Translations under genes and position numbers: made by a program | Shown here: positions 1,922-8,138 of the stretch, piece by piece | How the letters are laid out: every line of letters starts with the position of its first letter | Position numbering within the stretch: the stretch's first letter is position 1 | Notes under the pieces: generated by a model | Told to the model about the DNA's origin: nothing | Databases searched by the model: none | The model's input: only the letters and a program-made list of their open reading frames with translations | Source: Methanoregulaceae archaeon | GTDB taxonomy: Archaea; Halobacteriota; Methanomicrobia; Methanomicrobiales; Methanospirillaceae | Length of the DNA stretch: 11,997 nucleotides | Assembly (NCBI GenBank): GCA_013331215.1 | Contig: DUGU01000213.1 | Coordinates: forward strand, 211-12,207 | Direction: 5' to 3'

Positions 1922-3574
1922 TCAGCGCAGGAGGACCCAGCCGATGGCGTTGGTCGCGATCCAGCCGACGGCGACCCCGATCGCGATGATCGTGCCCGCA
2001 CCGCCGAGGTGCTGCGGCATGAGGAGGGGGTAGGCGACGAGGGCGAGGAGGCCGACGCCGACCCAGAGCGCGATCCCGACGGCCATCAGCGCGGAACCGC
2101 GCTTCGGTGCCGGAGACTGCGCAGCCGCTCCCGGCGCCGGTCCTTCGGACGTCGTGTCGGCCGCCGGGGAGGTGGCCGGCTCGACGGTTGCGGCCTCCGG
2201 CTTCGCCCGGGCGAGGAGCGCCCCGAGCAGGTCCTCGGCCTCGTTCCGCCGGTCGCGGATCTCGCTGTTCGTCGGGTCGAGGGCGACCGCCTCCTCGAGG
2301 TCGGCGACGGCGCCGCGCATCTCCGCGATCGCCGGGCCGAGGTCCGTCTCTTCGTCTCCGGCGCCAGCCGTTCCGTGCTCGATGCGTTTATCCGCCCGCT
2401 CGAACAGGAAGTGCGCAAGGGGCACACGAAGGATCCCGCGCTCGCCGAGCGGCAGGGCCCTCTGGAGCAGCACGATCGCGTCGTCGTACTCCTCGCGGCT
2501 GTGCTGCAGCTTGGCCTTGCCGAGCACCGACTCGGAGAGCGGGACCGCTACAAGGGACCGTTCCCCGGCCCGAGCGATCGCACGTTCCCAATGGCCGAAG
2601 GCGTCGTCGACTCGGTCCGCCTCGAGGTCCCTGAGGCCGATCCCGAGGTGGAGTTTTGCCTCGATTCGGTGCGCATCGGGTGAGGTGCGCTCATCCTCAT
2701 CGAGCCGCCCCAGCGCTCCGAGGGCGCTGTCGTACTCCTTCTCGTCGACCAGCCGCCCGATGACGGCGAAGGGGGTGAAGAGCGGCAGCAGGTCGGCGCG
2801 CCGTTCTTCGACCGCGGCCCGGACCTTCTCGAGCAGGCCGACCTCCGCGAGGAGATACGGGCCGGCCGCGATCGCGGCCGGCGAGAGCCCCCGGCCCGAG
2901 AGGATCTTCAGCTGCGACAGGGCGCGGGCGGCCTCGAGCTCGGACCGGAAGAGCGCGATCTGTTCCCGAATACGCCCCTCTCCGGGGACATCCCCGTTCC
3001 CCATCCTGAGCCCCGCCATCGCCTCGAGCTCGTCCGTGAGGTATCTCCCGAACGCGTTCGCGGCCGCTTCGCCATCGACGCGGTGGCCGGTCACAACCCC
3101 CCACTCGGTCCAGAACGCCTCCGACGCGCAGAGGGCGGCGAAGCGGGAGAGGGCCGCCTCCCAGAGCCGCGCCGTAAGGTCCGGCAGCGTGGGCAGATCC
3201 GGGCCGTTCCGCCCCGATCCGCGTGCCTCCCAGTACGAGAGCACCGCAATCGAGTGCGTGGCCGCCGACAGGGGAAACCCGCGCTTCTCGATGGCGCGCC
3301 ACCGCTCGTCCGCATGCCGACGGGCCGCTGTCTCGCTCAACGTCTCGAACGGTTCGTCGAAGGCGAGGTCGTCGAGGTACCGGTCCTGGTAGAGGAAGAG
3401 GTCGACCAGCGCCCGCCGGACCGGATCGTTCAGTTCCCGCGCGGCCGCTGTGGCCTCGCCCTGTTCCCCGGCTCCCACCGCGGCCGCCCGGTTGATCTCG
3501 TCGTCCCCGGCGCCCGGCTCTATTCCGAGCAGTTCGTATGGCGTCGGGCCCCGCTGAAGTGGATCCTTCTTCAT
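1922..3574 (-). CDS. Degenerate J-domain/TPR-like protein with two C-terminal membrane helices
   Basis: The protein has 550 aa. Residues 11-60 (TPYELLGIEPGAGDDEINRA, then a short helix and ELNDPVRRALVDLF) match the first and last helices of a J-domain. The middle is shortened and the HPD tripeptide needed to stimulate Hsp70 ATPase is absent. Residues about 80-430 are helical, charged and rich in Ala/Leu/Glu. The part around 360-430 (KLQHSREEYDDAIVLLQRAL and AVADLEEAVALDPTN) looks like TPR helices. A Pro/Ala/Thr linker (about 445-490) leads to two hydrophobic helices at about 494-516 and 526-548 with a short loop, which should anchor the protein in the membrane with the large domain cytosolic. 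The start at 3574 is supported by GGAG 8 nt upstream. The neighbour on the other strand is divergent. A membrane-tethered adaptor or scaffold is inferred; no enzymatic motif is visible. Confidence 0.85.
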   Translation of the reverse strand: MKKDPLQRGPTPYELLGIEPGAGDDEINRAAAVGAGEQGEATAAARELNDPVRRALVDLFLYQDRYLDDLAFDEPFETLSETAARRHADERWRAIEKRGFPLSAATHSIAVLSYWEARGSGRNGPDLPTLPDLTARLWEAALSRFAALCASEAFWTEWGVVTGHRVDGEAAANAFGRYLTDELEAMAGLRMGNGDVPGEGRIREQIALFRSELEAARALSQLKILSGRGLSPAAIAAGPYLLAEVGLLEKVRAAVEERRADLLPLFTPFAVIGRLVDEKEYDSALGALGRLDEDERTSPDAHRIEAKLHLGIGLRDLEADRVDDAFGHWERAIARAGERSLVAVPLSESVLGKAKLQHSREEYDDAIVLLQRALPLGERGILRVPLAHFLFERADKRIEHGTAGAGDEETDLGPAIAEMRGAVADLEEAVALDPTNSEIRDRRNEAEDLLGALLARAKPEAATVEPATSPAADTTSEGPAPGAAAQSPAPKRGSALMAVGIALWVGVGLLALVAYPLLMPQHLGGAGTIIAIGVAVGWIATNAIGWVLLR

Positions 3575-3737
3575 TGCATCGTCTCCGCATCCCCAGCGCC
3601 GGTCCGGGCCCCCGCGCGGTGCCCATCCGGTATGCCGTCGAATAAGGGGATGGGATCTCGCGGCTCATATCTGTTTCATAATTATCCTGAGAGACCCCGG
3701 CGATACCGTCCTTCCCCGATGGAAAAGGCTACCTGCA
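3575..3737. promoter_or_regulatory. Divergent promoter region with palindromic TATA-like element
   Basis: This intergenic stretch separates two divergently transcribed genes. The only AT-rich island is around 3666-3687 and contains the self-complementary ATAATTAT (3678-3685), which could act as a TATA element in either direction. On the plus strand it lies about 55 nt before the GTG at 3738. On the minus strand it is about 105 nt before the ATG at 3574, where GGAG (complement of 3583-3586) gives a normal ribosome site. For the plus-strand gene only a weak AAAAGG (3723-3728) is seen. Confidence 0.4.
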
Positions 3738-4196
3738 GTGAAGCCGAACCGCTCTTTAACCGTGCCCTCGATTCTGCTCGTACCCGTGGAGCCCCTCCCG
3801 CCGAAGTCCCTGCTCGATATGCTCGCTGAACGCCTCGAACGTGCCTTCGGCCAGGCCGTGCGCATCATGGACCCTGTCCGAACCCCAGTTGCATCACGGC
3901 TCGGCGCCGATCGCTCCGCAGCAGAACCAGTCCGGGCTGCGATCGCCGCTACATGGGGGTGCGGCTGCCGGGATCGGCTCGTGGGCGTGACGGCCGCGAC
4001 GCTCGTCGGTGGGAACCCTGCAACCGGATGTGGGGGCGTCCTCGTCCTCTCCGTACAGCCGGGTGCGGAGGCCGGTGCGCCCGTCCGCGAGGTCGGCCGG
4101 AGCCTCGGCCTCGAGGACTGCAACGACCCCGGCTGTGCCATGCACCCCGCAGGCAACGCCCCCGGGCTCTGCCGCGCCTGCCGCGAGCGGTGCTGA
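3738..4196 (+). CDS. Archaemetzincin-like protein with eroded zinc-protease motif
   Basis: The protein has 152 aa and starts with GTG. The N-terminal ILLVPVEPLPPKSLLDMLAE and the central RLVGVTAATLVGG match the first strand-helix and the RVLGVTDxDL region of archaemetzincins, a family of zinc metalloproteases with motif HExxHxxGx3Cx4CxMx17CxxC. The motif here reads REVGRSLGLEDC-x4-CAM-x9-CRAC (residues 117-148). Both helix histidines are Arg (117 and 121), the third ligand position is Asp127, Glu118 and Gly124 remain, and all four structural-zinc cysteines (128, 133, 145, 148) remain. The linker before the last CxxC is 9 rather than 17 residues, and about 25 residues before the helix appear to be missing compared with the usual 170-200 aa family length. 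Extra cysteines are at 75, 77, 98 and 152. I infer a non-proteolytic derivative holding one structural zinc. The frame is intact throughout, so the changes are not caused by a frameshift. It is convergent with the ATPase gene. Confidence 0.8.
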   Translation: MKPNRSLTVPSILLVPVEPLPPKSLLDMLAERLERAFGQAVRIMDPVRTPVASRLGADRSAAEPVRAAIAATWGCGCRDRLVGVTAATLVGGNPATGCGGVLVLSVQPGAEAGAPVREVGRSLGLEDCNDPGCAMHPAGNAPGLCRACRERC

Positions 4197-4389
4197 AGAG
4201 CCCGGAGGCCGGTCACGGCAGTTCTGACCCGCGCAGTCGACGTCTGCCAGGAAGGAGCGCGGCCCCCTCCGTCCCCCAGATCGCTTCCGCCGGCAATTAC
4301 CCGCTCTTCACCTTCATCGGCTCCTTCCAGCCTGTGCGGCTCACGGCAGCGCCGATAGATTTTGGCACGTACAGGGAGTGGCCGCCCCG

Positions 4390-7147
4390 TCACACGGGCG
4401 CGGCAACAATGTTCGGCGTCTCCGCCCGCGCCCTCTGCCGGAGGAATGCCTTGTAGACGTCCCCCATGGCGAGCAGGGCCACGCCGGGGACGACACAGAG
4501 CAGCCACTGGTACGGGGTCAGCGGGACGGTGCCGAAGATCGCCTGGAAGAGGCCCGTCTCGGTCATCAGGATCGAGCCGAACACGACCCAGAGGTACGCG
4601 TAGACGAGCCGGGCGTTGGAGAACGTCGAGGCCTGGAACACAGTGTCCTGGGGGAACCGGACGTTCAGCGCGAGGAAGATGTTCATCAGCGAGAGCGAGA
4701 CGAGCGCCATGGTCTGACCGACTGCGAACGAGCCGTAGGCGACCTTCCCGATCTGAAAGAGGACGAGCGCCGAAGCGGCCATGAACGCCCCGGCGACGAA
4801 GAGCTGGACGTACATCCCGGCGGAGACGATCGACTCGTCGTACGGGCGAGGCTTGCGAGTCATGATCCCGGGGGAGGCGATGTCCAGGCCGAGCATCGCG
4901 CCGATGGGGACGACGATCAGCATGTGTATCCAGAGCACCTGCTGGGGGCTGAAGAGCGCCGTGCCGGCGATCGCGAAGACCGAGGATCCCAGGAAGGCCA
5001 GGATGAACATGAAGAGATTGACGATCTGGATCCGTAAAAACTTCTGAAGGTTGTCGTAGACCTTCCGCCCTTCCCCGATAGCCGCCACGATCGTCGCGAA
5101 GTTGTCGTCCGTGAGGATCATCTTGGCCGCACCCTTGGCGACATCCGTGCCGGCGATGCCCATGGCGATGCCGATATCCGCAGCCTTGAGGGCGGGTGCG
5201 TCGTTCACGCCGTCCCCGGTCATGGCCACGATATTGCCCTGCCGCTTCAGGACGTTCACCAGCTTGACCTTGTGCTCGGGCGCGACACGGGCGATCACCC
5301 CGATCTCGCCGATCTGTTGCACGGCCTCCTCGTCGCTCATCGCGGCGAACTCCGCTCCGGTGATGGCCCGTCCCTCGATGCCGAGCTCGCGGGCGATTGC
5401 GCCTGCCGTGACCGCGTGGTCGCCGGTGATCATCCTGACCCGGATGCCCGCACGCTTTGCCGTCTCGATCGCGTCCTTCACCTCCGGCCGGGGGGGATCG
5501 ACCTGGCCGACGAATGCGGTCAGAACGAGGTCCTTCATCAGGGCCATCAGGTCGGCTCCCGGGTCGAACGTGGAAGCGTCGAACTCCGCCTCTGCAAATG
5601 CGAGGATGCGCAGTCCCTGTCCGGCGATACGCTCGTACCCCCCCCAGTATCTTCCGGCGATCCTCCGCGCCGAGCAGCTTCGCCGATCCGTCGGGCATCA
5701 GGCCGTGCGTGGTCCAGGCCAGGATCACGTCAGGGGCGCCCCTGACATATGCCCGGATCACCGGCTTTCCGTCCGCGCCCTCCATCGCGTGGAAGGTCGC
5801 CATGAACTTGTACTCCGAGTCGAAGGGGATACTCGCGATCCTCGGGGTGTTCCGGCGGAACTCCTCCACGTGTATGCCGCCCTTCTCCGCGAGGACCCAG
5901 AGTGCCCCCTCTGTCGGATCCCCGATCACCTCGCCGTCCCTGATCTCGGTGTCGATACAGAGCGCGCAGGGAAAGAGGACGTGGTCCAGGTTCTCTTCCG
6001 CCTCCCCCTCGGTCCACTCTATCCGTCCCTCGAAGCTGTAGCCTTCGCCGGAGACGACATAGCGGTGCCGAACCGTCGAGACCACGCGGACGGTCATCTG
6101 GTTGATGGTCAGGGTTCCTGTCTTGTCCGAGTTGATGGCCGAGGTGGACCCCAGAGTCTCGACCGCCGGGAGACTCTTGATGATGGCGCCCTTCGCGGCC
6201 ATCGCGACGGTCCCCACCGCGAGGATGGTGATAACGACGGCGGGTAGGCCGTCGGGGATGGACCCTATCGCGAGCGAGACGCCGATGGTGAACAGCGTGG
6301 TGAAGTCCTCGCCCTCGAAAAGGCCGATCACGACGATGCTGAGGAAGGCCAGCACCGCCATCCCGATGATGAAGAGGGTGACCCTGTCGACCTGCCGGGC
6401 GAGCGGGGTCTTCTCCTCCTTCTGCTCCCTGAGCATGGTGGCGATGTGGCCTACCGCCGAACGCATGCCCGTCTCGGTGACCAGGATCTCGCCGTGGCCC
6501 CGGGTGACGTTCGTGTCCATGAAGGCCATGTTCAGGCAGTCGCCGAGGGGCGGGTTCGGTGTGGCGATCACCTCGCCGGTCTTCTCGACGGCCGTGCTCT
6601 CACCGGTGAGGGCCGCCTCGTCGATCTGCAGGTTTGCGGCGGCGATCACCCGGCCGTCGGCGGGGACCCGGTCGCCGGCATCGACGATCACGATGTCGCC
6701 GGGGACGATCCCATCGGCCTCTATCCGGGAGATCCGGCCGTCCCGCCGCACCTTTGCGACGATCTTCATCATCCTGTTCAGCGCGGCAACACTGGCCCCT
6801 GCCTTCGCCTCCTGCTTGTAGCCGATGGTGGCGCTGAAGATCGTCAGCAGGACGAGAAGCAGGAACGTGCGGTACTCGGCGATAAAAAGGCTCACAATCG
6901 CCGCGACGATCAGGACGATCTGCATGGAGGACGTGTACTGTTCCAGGAACCTGAGCCAGGCGGGCTTCTGCTTCTCCTCCTCGAGCACGTTACGGCCGTA
7001 CCGTGCGATGCGTGCCGCGGTCTCGAACGAGCTGAGCCCCCGGTCTGGAGAGACTCCCAGTCGCTCCGCGACCTCCTCCACGCTCATCGCGTACCAGGAC
7101 GGCTCGGTGTTTCCAGAGCCCGGTGACTGCAGAGTCGGATCAGGCAT
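4390..7147 (-). pseudogene. P2-type cation-transporting ATPase, interrupted by a single-base frameshift
   Basis: Removing one base restores a 918-aa P-type ATPase. The parts in order are an N-terminal cation-ATPase domain (about 17-70); M1/M2; an actuator domain with TGES (181-184); M3/M4 with PDGLP (298-302); the phosphorylation motif DKTGTLT at Asp341; an N-domain with GDPTEGAL (409-416) and RGAP (469-472); the hinge TGDGVNDAP (643-651); and M5-M10. The frame breaks after residue 503 in a C8 run at 5638-5645; seven bases would keep the frame. As read, the first frame would continue to 3665 with Arg/Gly-rich nonsense antisense to the archaemetzincin-like gene, so that extension is spurious. 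The start at 7147 has a strong GGGGAGGAG (complement of 7151-7159). It resembles Ca2+ ATPases (P2A), but M5/M6 lack the SERCA Asn/Glu and Asn/Thr/Asp ion ligands and M4 has Asp instead of Glu, so the transported ion is uncertain. Sequencing error is the likeliest cause of the break. Confidence 0.9.
5638..5645 (-). other. Homopolymer frameshift site in the ATPase (C8 on +, G8 on coding strand)
   Basis: The coding strand reads ATACTG then a G8 run then TACGAGCG. With eight G the reading passes into an Arg-rich out-of-frame sequence. With seven it reads ILGGYERIAGQGLRILAFAE, the expected family sequence, and joins directly to the intact second half. Confidence 0.9.
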
Positions 7148-7631: not shown

Positions 7632-8138
7632 ATGCGTAGTGGCGATACGGCGACCGTGCCGCGCCGGTATCGGATGCGCGAGCGGCTCTTCGACCTCGGC
7701 GAGGACTTCACGGTCGAGGACGAATCGGGTCGCCCGGCATTCCGTGTCGACGGGAAGATGCTCACGCTCCGGAAGACCTTCGTGCTCGAGGACATCGACG
7801 GGCATCAGCTCGCGACCATCCGCCAGCCGCTGATCTCGCTTCGGGACACGGTGGTGATCGAACGGCCCGACGAGCCGCCGGCGACCGTGCGGCGACCGCT
7901 CCTCCCGCACCTCCGGCCGAGGTTCCATGTCGAATTCACCGAGGGCGACCTCGAGGTGGAGGGAACATCATCGGGCATGAGTACGTGGTCCGGAGGGGTC
8001 GCGAGACTGTCGCGCGGATCTCCAGGGAATGGTTTCAGCTCCGGGACACGTACGGGATCGAGGTCGAGCCCGGGGGGGGATCCGGCACTGATGATCTCGA
8101 TCGCGGTCGCACTCGAGGCGTTCGACGAGGGCGAGTAG
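7632..8138 (+). pseudogene. LURP-one-related (LOR/DUF567, tubby C-like) protein with two compensating frameshifts
   Basis: After correction of two single-base errors this is a protein of about 168 aa. The frame at the start gives RYRMRERLFDLGEDFTVEDE, then FRVDGKMLTLRKTFVLED and ATIRQPLISLRDTVVIE, the repeated beta-strand pattern of LURP-one-related proteins. At the GGG of 7961-7963 the frame must shift, one G short, to read GNIIGHEYVVRRGRETVARI and REWFQLRDTYGIEVEPG. At the G8 of 8072-8079 it must shift back, one G too many, to read DPALMISIAVALEAFDEGE and stop. All three pieces match the family in order, so this is one gene. The family has a 12-stranded barrel around a central helix; its cellular role in prokaryotes is unclear. 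The start is taken as ATG 7632; GTG 7656, ATG 7674 and GTG 7566 are in-frame alternatives and none has a well-spaced ribosome site. Confidence 0.85.

Follow-up and report, generated by a model that had tools for sequence, protein, structure and literature searches.

The open reading frame (ORF) examined here lies on the forward strand of an 11,997-nucleotide stretch of Methanoregulaceae archaeon DNA (contig DUGU01000213.1, assembly GCA_013331215.1), the whole of which we call the window. As previously described, it comprises 152 codons when read from GTG 3738, at coordinates 3738 to 4196, and its product carries the residues R117-E-V-G-R121, D127, C128-x4-C133-x-M135, and C145-x2-C148. Translation probably begins at GTG 3762 rather than at GTG 3738, because the residues MSPSILLVPV open many orthologues and residues 1 to 6 are of low confidence in the predicted model. 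The original prediction, made from the window alone, described an archaemetzincin-like protein with Arg, Arg, and Asp at the zinc ligand positions and intact structural cysteines; the sequence bears out both the position and the pattern, and the pattern recurs across the 38 rows of a family alignment. The features of this putative pseudo-archaemetzincin are as follows.

3738..4196, + strand: pseudo-archaemetzincin ORF, with the probable start at GTG 3762 (144 amino acids); from family searches, alignment, and predicted fold.
3960..3968, + strand: C75-G-C77 within the family motif W-G-C-G-C-R, just ahead of predicted strand 80-85; from alignment and predicted secondary structure.
4008..4085, + strand: shortened segment at the putative equivalent of the archaemetzincin substrate-binding edge strand and the loop that follows; from length counts and predicted secondary structure.
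4029..4031, + strand: C98, an invariant extra cysteine (38 of 38 rows), just ahead of predicted strand 102-105; from alignment and predicted secondary structure.
4086..4118, + strand: presumably dead active-site helix and third-ligand position, with R117, E118, R121, G124, and D127 replacing HExxHxxGxxH; from the 38-row alignment.
4119..4142, + strand: C128-x4-C133-x-M135, first half of a putative Cys4 zinc site together with the Met-turn Met; C128 and C133 in 38 of 38 rows, M135 in 36 of 38.
4143..4169, + strand: shortened linker (9 versus 16 residues) at the putative equivalent of the archaemetzincin substrate-specificity loop; from length counts, with loop roles as reported in PMC3427221.
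4170..4181, + strand: C145-x2-C148, second half of the putative Cys4 zinc site; 38 of 38 rows.

A search of 5.8 billion proteins with the ORF product returned 32 proteins, itself included, all with expectation values (E) of 9e-31 or better, and a profile search in which 8000 candidates were scored added seven more, to give a family of 39. Those with a named source come from Methanospirillum sp. or Methanoregulaceae archaeon, in metagenome-assembled genomes. The alignment leaves out one member, P0030, which likewise lacks HExxH. Mean column identity across the family is 59%, and 14 columns are invariant. No report of the family was found in the one literature library searched. Among 232 genomes of the order, with at most 16 candidates scored per genome, strong matches (E of 3.7e-54 or better) were confined to the window's genus, where six of the seven genomes hold the gene, all six free of stops inside the match. 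In the seventh, G002 (about 80% complete), the neighboring TPR gene described below begins at base 1 of its contig, so the ORF would fall beyond the contig end. The scan matched 87 genomes in all, 81 of which, G002 included, gave only weak matches (E of 3.9e-6 or worse); the 24 weak-match loci that were read (L068 to L091) each encode an ordinary archaemetzincin with HExxHxxG. A viral or proviral origin was rejected, as 32 stretches from IMG/VR contigs matched a pattern and none of them encoded a relative of the family.

The catalytic motif of the archaemetzincins (peptidase family M54), HExxHxxGxxH, is present in none of the 38 rows. The first ligand position is occupied by Arg (R117) in 37 rows and by His in one, the second by Arg (R121) in 34 and the third by Asp (D127) in 30, with His at neither of the latter two in any row. 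AfAmzA has H117-E-I-G-H121 at the corresponding place (PMC3427221). The catalytic Glu (Glu118), said earlier to remain, does so in the window ORF, but in the family it is retained in only 9 rows and is replaced by Ala in 22. Two segments are also reduced. The linker between the Met-turn Met and the third Cys measures 9 residues in every row versus 16 in all 54 M54 proteins of the order that were examined (16 by the count used here; x17 in the published motif). Ahead of the helix there are 26 to 31 residues versus usually 46 to 48 in the M54 proteins of the order, with anchors that differ by one residue between the two groups, and some 18 to 20 residues are missing; outliers of 55 to 71 residues (two of the 26 type-A and four of the 28 type-B proteins) arose where the pattern caught an earlier site. 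Both shortenings, first noted in the single ORF, are thus fixed in the family. In archaemetzincins the edge strand binds substrate (PMC3427221) and would map to the region of residues 90 to 102, between which the predicted model contains no strand longer than two residues. Judged from the alignment, then, the loss goes beyond the two histidines named at first to the whole protease apparatus, with all ligands and mostly the Glu gone and the groove segments cut. The Arg/Arg/Asp pattern of the ORF is, on the same grounds, neither chance nor read error, because it is repeated across the family. Indeed, orthologues with this pattern were found, none with an intact motif, which contradicts a sequence error at 4086-4118.

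What was kept is equally uniform. The four structural cysteines, C128, C133, C145, and C148, are each present in all 38 rows, as had been claimed for the ORF, and so are C77, C98, G124, and seven further columns; the Met-turn M135 is found in 36 rows and H136 in 37. In the M. kandleri enzyme, alteration of one Cys4 cysteine is reported to make the protein unstable, and its authors took this to mean that the site is structural (PMC3427221). The suggestion that extra cysteines could form a new metal site fared unevenly, since C77 and C98 are invariant and C75 is conserved in 36 rows (Gly in the other two), but C152 occurs in only 26. The strands that C77 and C98 precede, 80-85 and 102-105, are presumably neighbors in the metzincin sheet.

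Descent of the family from the archaemetzincins is supported by profile comparison and by the predicted fold. Comparison with hhalign gave an E of 5.8e-17 over 145 columns, the whole length of the family, and the N-terminal part alone matched archaemetzincins better than all 60 shuffles. A predicted model built without archaemetzincin sequences matches the archaemetzincin fold and shows the metzincin fold with its Met-turn. The alignment and the structural comparison proposed with the original prediction are thus both in accord with it. In several genomes of family f5, a single reading frame yields N-terminal and C-terminal matching pieces with a gap between them, which is what shared descent and an internal deletion predict. 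An intact archaemetzincin, the presence of which had also been asked about, was found once in each of the seven genus genomes, the window genome included, and is of another type (type A). No intact type-B archaemetzincin was detected among those seven genomes, which have one archaemetzincin match each and are 66 to 95% complete. Duplication of the genome's own type-A gene is not favored as the origin, given that type A is set off by a branch of 1.71 and matches only the C-terminal 39 columns. The tree, from which P0002, P0020, P0030, and P0032 are omitted, leaves a type-A versus a type-B origin unsettled, with a fork shared by several type-B lines and the line of type A plus L075. A search with a type-B profile, in which 8000 candidates were scored, matched 4647 proteins; among the 120 matches listed, 118 carry the full HExxHxxGxxH motif and the remaining two retain all its histidines and differ at the Gly alone, so that no further dead archaemetzincin was seen among those 120.

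The gene appears to be under purifying selection and not simply decaying, because the ratio of nonsynonymous to synonymous substitution rates (dN/dS) between the ORF and its nearest relative with DNA, G001, is 0.38 (bootstrap 0.24 to 0.55). Four neighboring genes gave 0.11 (DUF2284), 0.12 (TrpB), 0.26 (Prx), and 0.26 (TrpA); a fifth, GNAT, was disregarded as misaligned (9% identity). The 15 pairs among the six genomes gave dN/dS values of 0.28 to 0.78 at dS of 0.64 to 1.74, many of them imprecise. Together with the absence of the motif from all 38 rows, this ratio upholds the earlier view that the loss was selective and a function was retained, as opposed to random decay.

In related genomes the ORF sits within a kept block, with LeuB-like, orf345, and TPR genes on one side and LOR, DUF2284, Prx, GNAT, and trp genes on the other, some of them absent in some genomes. 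Two of these neighbors are of particular concern here.

1922..3574, - strand: TPR protein, a divergent, genus-only neighbor and candidate partner; from gene neighborhood and genome searches.
7680..8138, + strand: LOR (LURP-one-related, PF04525) protein; from gene neighborhood and Pfam scan.

The TPR gene was matched in 6 of the 81 family genomes searched, all within the window's genus, and stands beside or near the orthologue in G003 to G006, with an extra gene between the two in G004 and G005 (of PAS/histidine-kinase type in G004). Its product has 550 residues and, by eye, a hydrophobic C terminus. A J-domain at the N terminus, suspected by eye, is not claimed; Pfam gave only sub-threshold TPR matches, and the best PDB match to the first 100 residues had an E of 0.33. 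The LOR gene lies downstream in the same orientation in G001, G004, G005, and, as a 38-residue match only, G006; in G003 the contig ends. PF04525 covers nearly the whole domain in the G001 protein and only the first half in the window copy, a middle stretch of which fails to align with relatives, probably through a frame disturbance. Between the ORF and the LOR gene, the window has a Ca-type P-ATPase gene split over two frames near 5547 (3665-7147 and 4390-5547 on the - strand), which suggests a one-base indel, either an assembly error or real; by arithmetic only, the P-ATPase pieces of G003 are spaced as if in one frame. Directly upstream of the G001 orthologue (L092) is an ORF that looks transposase-like by eye. 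The sequence TTTATCAAACCC is common upstream of the orthologues in G004, G005, and G006, and the AT-rich TTTCATAATTATCC lies upstream of the window ORF at 3674-3687; both are possible archaeal TATA boxes. Intact type-B archaemetzincins occur near a leuB-like gene in G038, G053, and G058, three genomes of family f3. That this reflects a gene order shared with the window was rejected, as the window gene, searched with a 101-residue piece, finds its nearest match there in a different paralogue (64 to 65%), and the copies adjoining the archaemetzincins are the 43 to 48% matches.

We think it likely that the protein is a pseudo-archaemetzincin folded around the Cys4 zinc, inactive, and serving as an adaptor that binds another protein, in the manner of CarG, described below; it has probably gained a new, non-cutting job. 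An ancestor of the genus would have carried an archaemetzincin gene, most like type B, that lost all three catalytic zinc histidines, the catalytic Glu in most members, a large part of the edge-strand segment, and some of the specificity loop. What persisted would be the beta-sheet, the helices, the Met-turn, and the Cys4 site, the last perhaps still holding a structural zinc. Such a protein would bind no catalytic zinc and cleave nothing, as its sequence leads one to expect, and would act by binding another protein, as CarG does with CarD. The divergent TPR protein and the nearby LOR protein are candidate partners. A number of observations weigh against this scheme. Gene neighborhood alone points to the partners, and the TPR gene has no match in G001, whose contig starts shortly upstream of the orthologue with another ORF. 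The pseudo-archaemetzincin evolves faster than the four neighbors (0.38 versus 0.11 to 0.26), which is also compatible with weak constraint. By itself the ORF product scores 11.2 bits against Pfam M54 (cutoff, 24.4), over residues 117 to 139, and 14.5 bits against NCBIfam M54 (cutoff, 145); at a threshold as loose as an E of 1, Pfam M54 is still matched by no more than 10 of the 38 family members, the best at 0.034. A PDB search with the single protein put unrelated chains on top, and one with the family profile ranked archaemetzincins first, yet only at E values of 0.048 to 0.095. The family's branch is long (1.91), its attachment fork is not resolved in the tree, and no intermediate between archaemetzincins and the family was found.

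The low single-sequence scores, with no PDB archaemetzincin reaching a significant E by sequence, would suit an unrelated protein that came upon CxxxxCxM...CxxC by convergence, but the whole-length profile match, the N-terminal match above all shuffles, and the independently built model make this the least credible of the readings weighed. Hardly more probable is a still active peptidase using other zinc ligands. D127 and H136, close to the old site in sequence, and the extra cysteines are available for the purpose, but His is missing at the first ligand position in 37 rows and at the second in all 38, Glu118 persists in just 9, and both the stretch leading into the helix and the one following the Met-turn are reduced. 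We also strongly disfavor, as very improbable, a relic decaying without function; the faster evolution, the other disturbed reading frames in the window, and the divergent, as if frame-shifted, tail of P0030 (1 of 39 family proteins) speak for it, and the dN/dS, the 14 invariant columns, and the stop-free match in six of six genomes speak against it. A more serious rival, though still an unlikely one, is that C75, C77, and C98, alone or together with H136 or C152, make a new site of the metal, Fe-S, or disulfide kind, and that redox or metal sensing is the main job. The near-invariance of these three cysteines at 59% mean column identity and the placement of C77 and C98 just before predicted strands favor it, but C75 is Gly in two rows and C152 is present in only 26. 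A combined version, in which a second Cys metal or redox site at neighboring strand ends makes the protein a sensing adaptor coupled to the TPR and LOR proteins in a three-part genus system, is more doubtful again.

Pseudo-proteases are familiar from animals and bacteria. The present family, which still looks constrained, has lost all the catalytic ligands and a large part of the substrate groove, and through it one can ask what role the Cys4 fold of the archaemetzincins has when catalysis is gone, a useful question because little is known of archaemetzincin roles. One review of inactive metallopeptidases (PMC11266112) contains none of the terms M54, CarG, and archae in its main text. The archaemetzincins of known structure (PF07998; AfAmzA, 3zvs/4axq; MkAmzA, 2x7m; MlAmzA, 3lmc) resemble the family in the whole-length profile match, the predicted fold, the Cys4 pattern CxxxxCxM...CxxC, the Met-turn Met, and the conserved Gly. 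Unlike them, the family lacks HExxHxxGxxH and mostly the Glu, is missing about 18 to 20 residues before the helix and 7 before CxxC, and has additional conserved cysteines at 75, 77, and 98. Purified AfAmzA and MkAmzA were reported inactive on the substrates tested (PMC3427221), and AMZ-tk was reported active (PMC4681839). In vertebrate AMZ1, also an archaemetzincin, the third zinc ligand is likewise substituted, but only that His is reported replaced (PMC3427221), whereas the present family has lost all three. The closest parallel in function may be CarG of Myxococcus xanthus, which has been labelled a non-catalytic archaemetzincin (PMC3427221) and is described as binding two zincs, having no protease activity, and working in complex with CarD (PMC8156234). 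Like the family, which is predicted to be inactive, this non-protease is an archaemetzincin relative that keeps the Cys4 motif, and the adaptor reading is plausible because CarG shows that such relatives can work in this way. CarG, however, retains the three motif histidines as HQx2H...HC, with Glu changed to Gln, whereas the pseudo-archaemetzincins have lost the histidines and have shortened groove segments; at the level of sequence, the loss is deeper in this family than in CarG.
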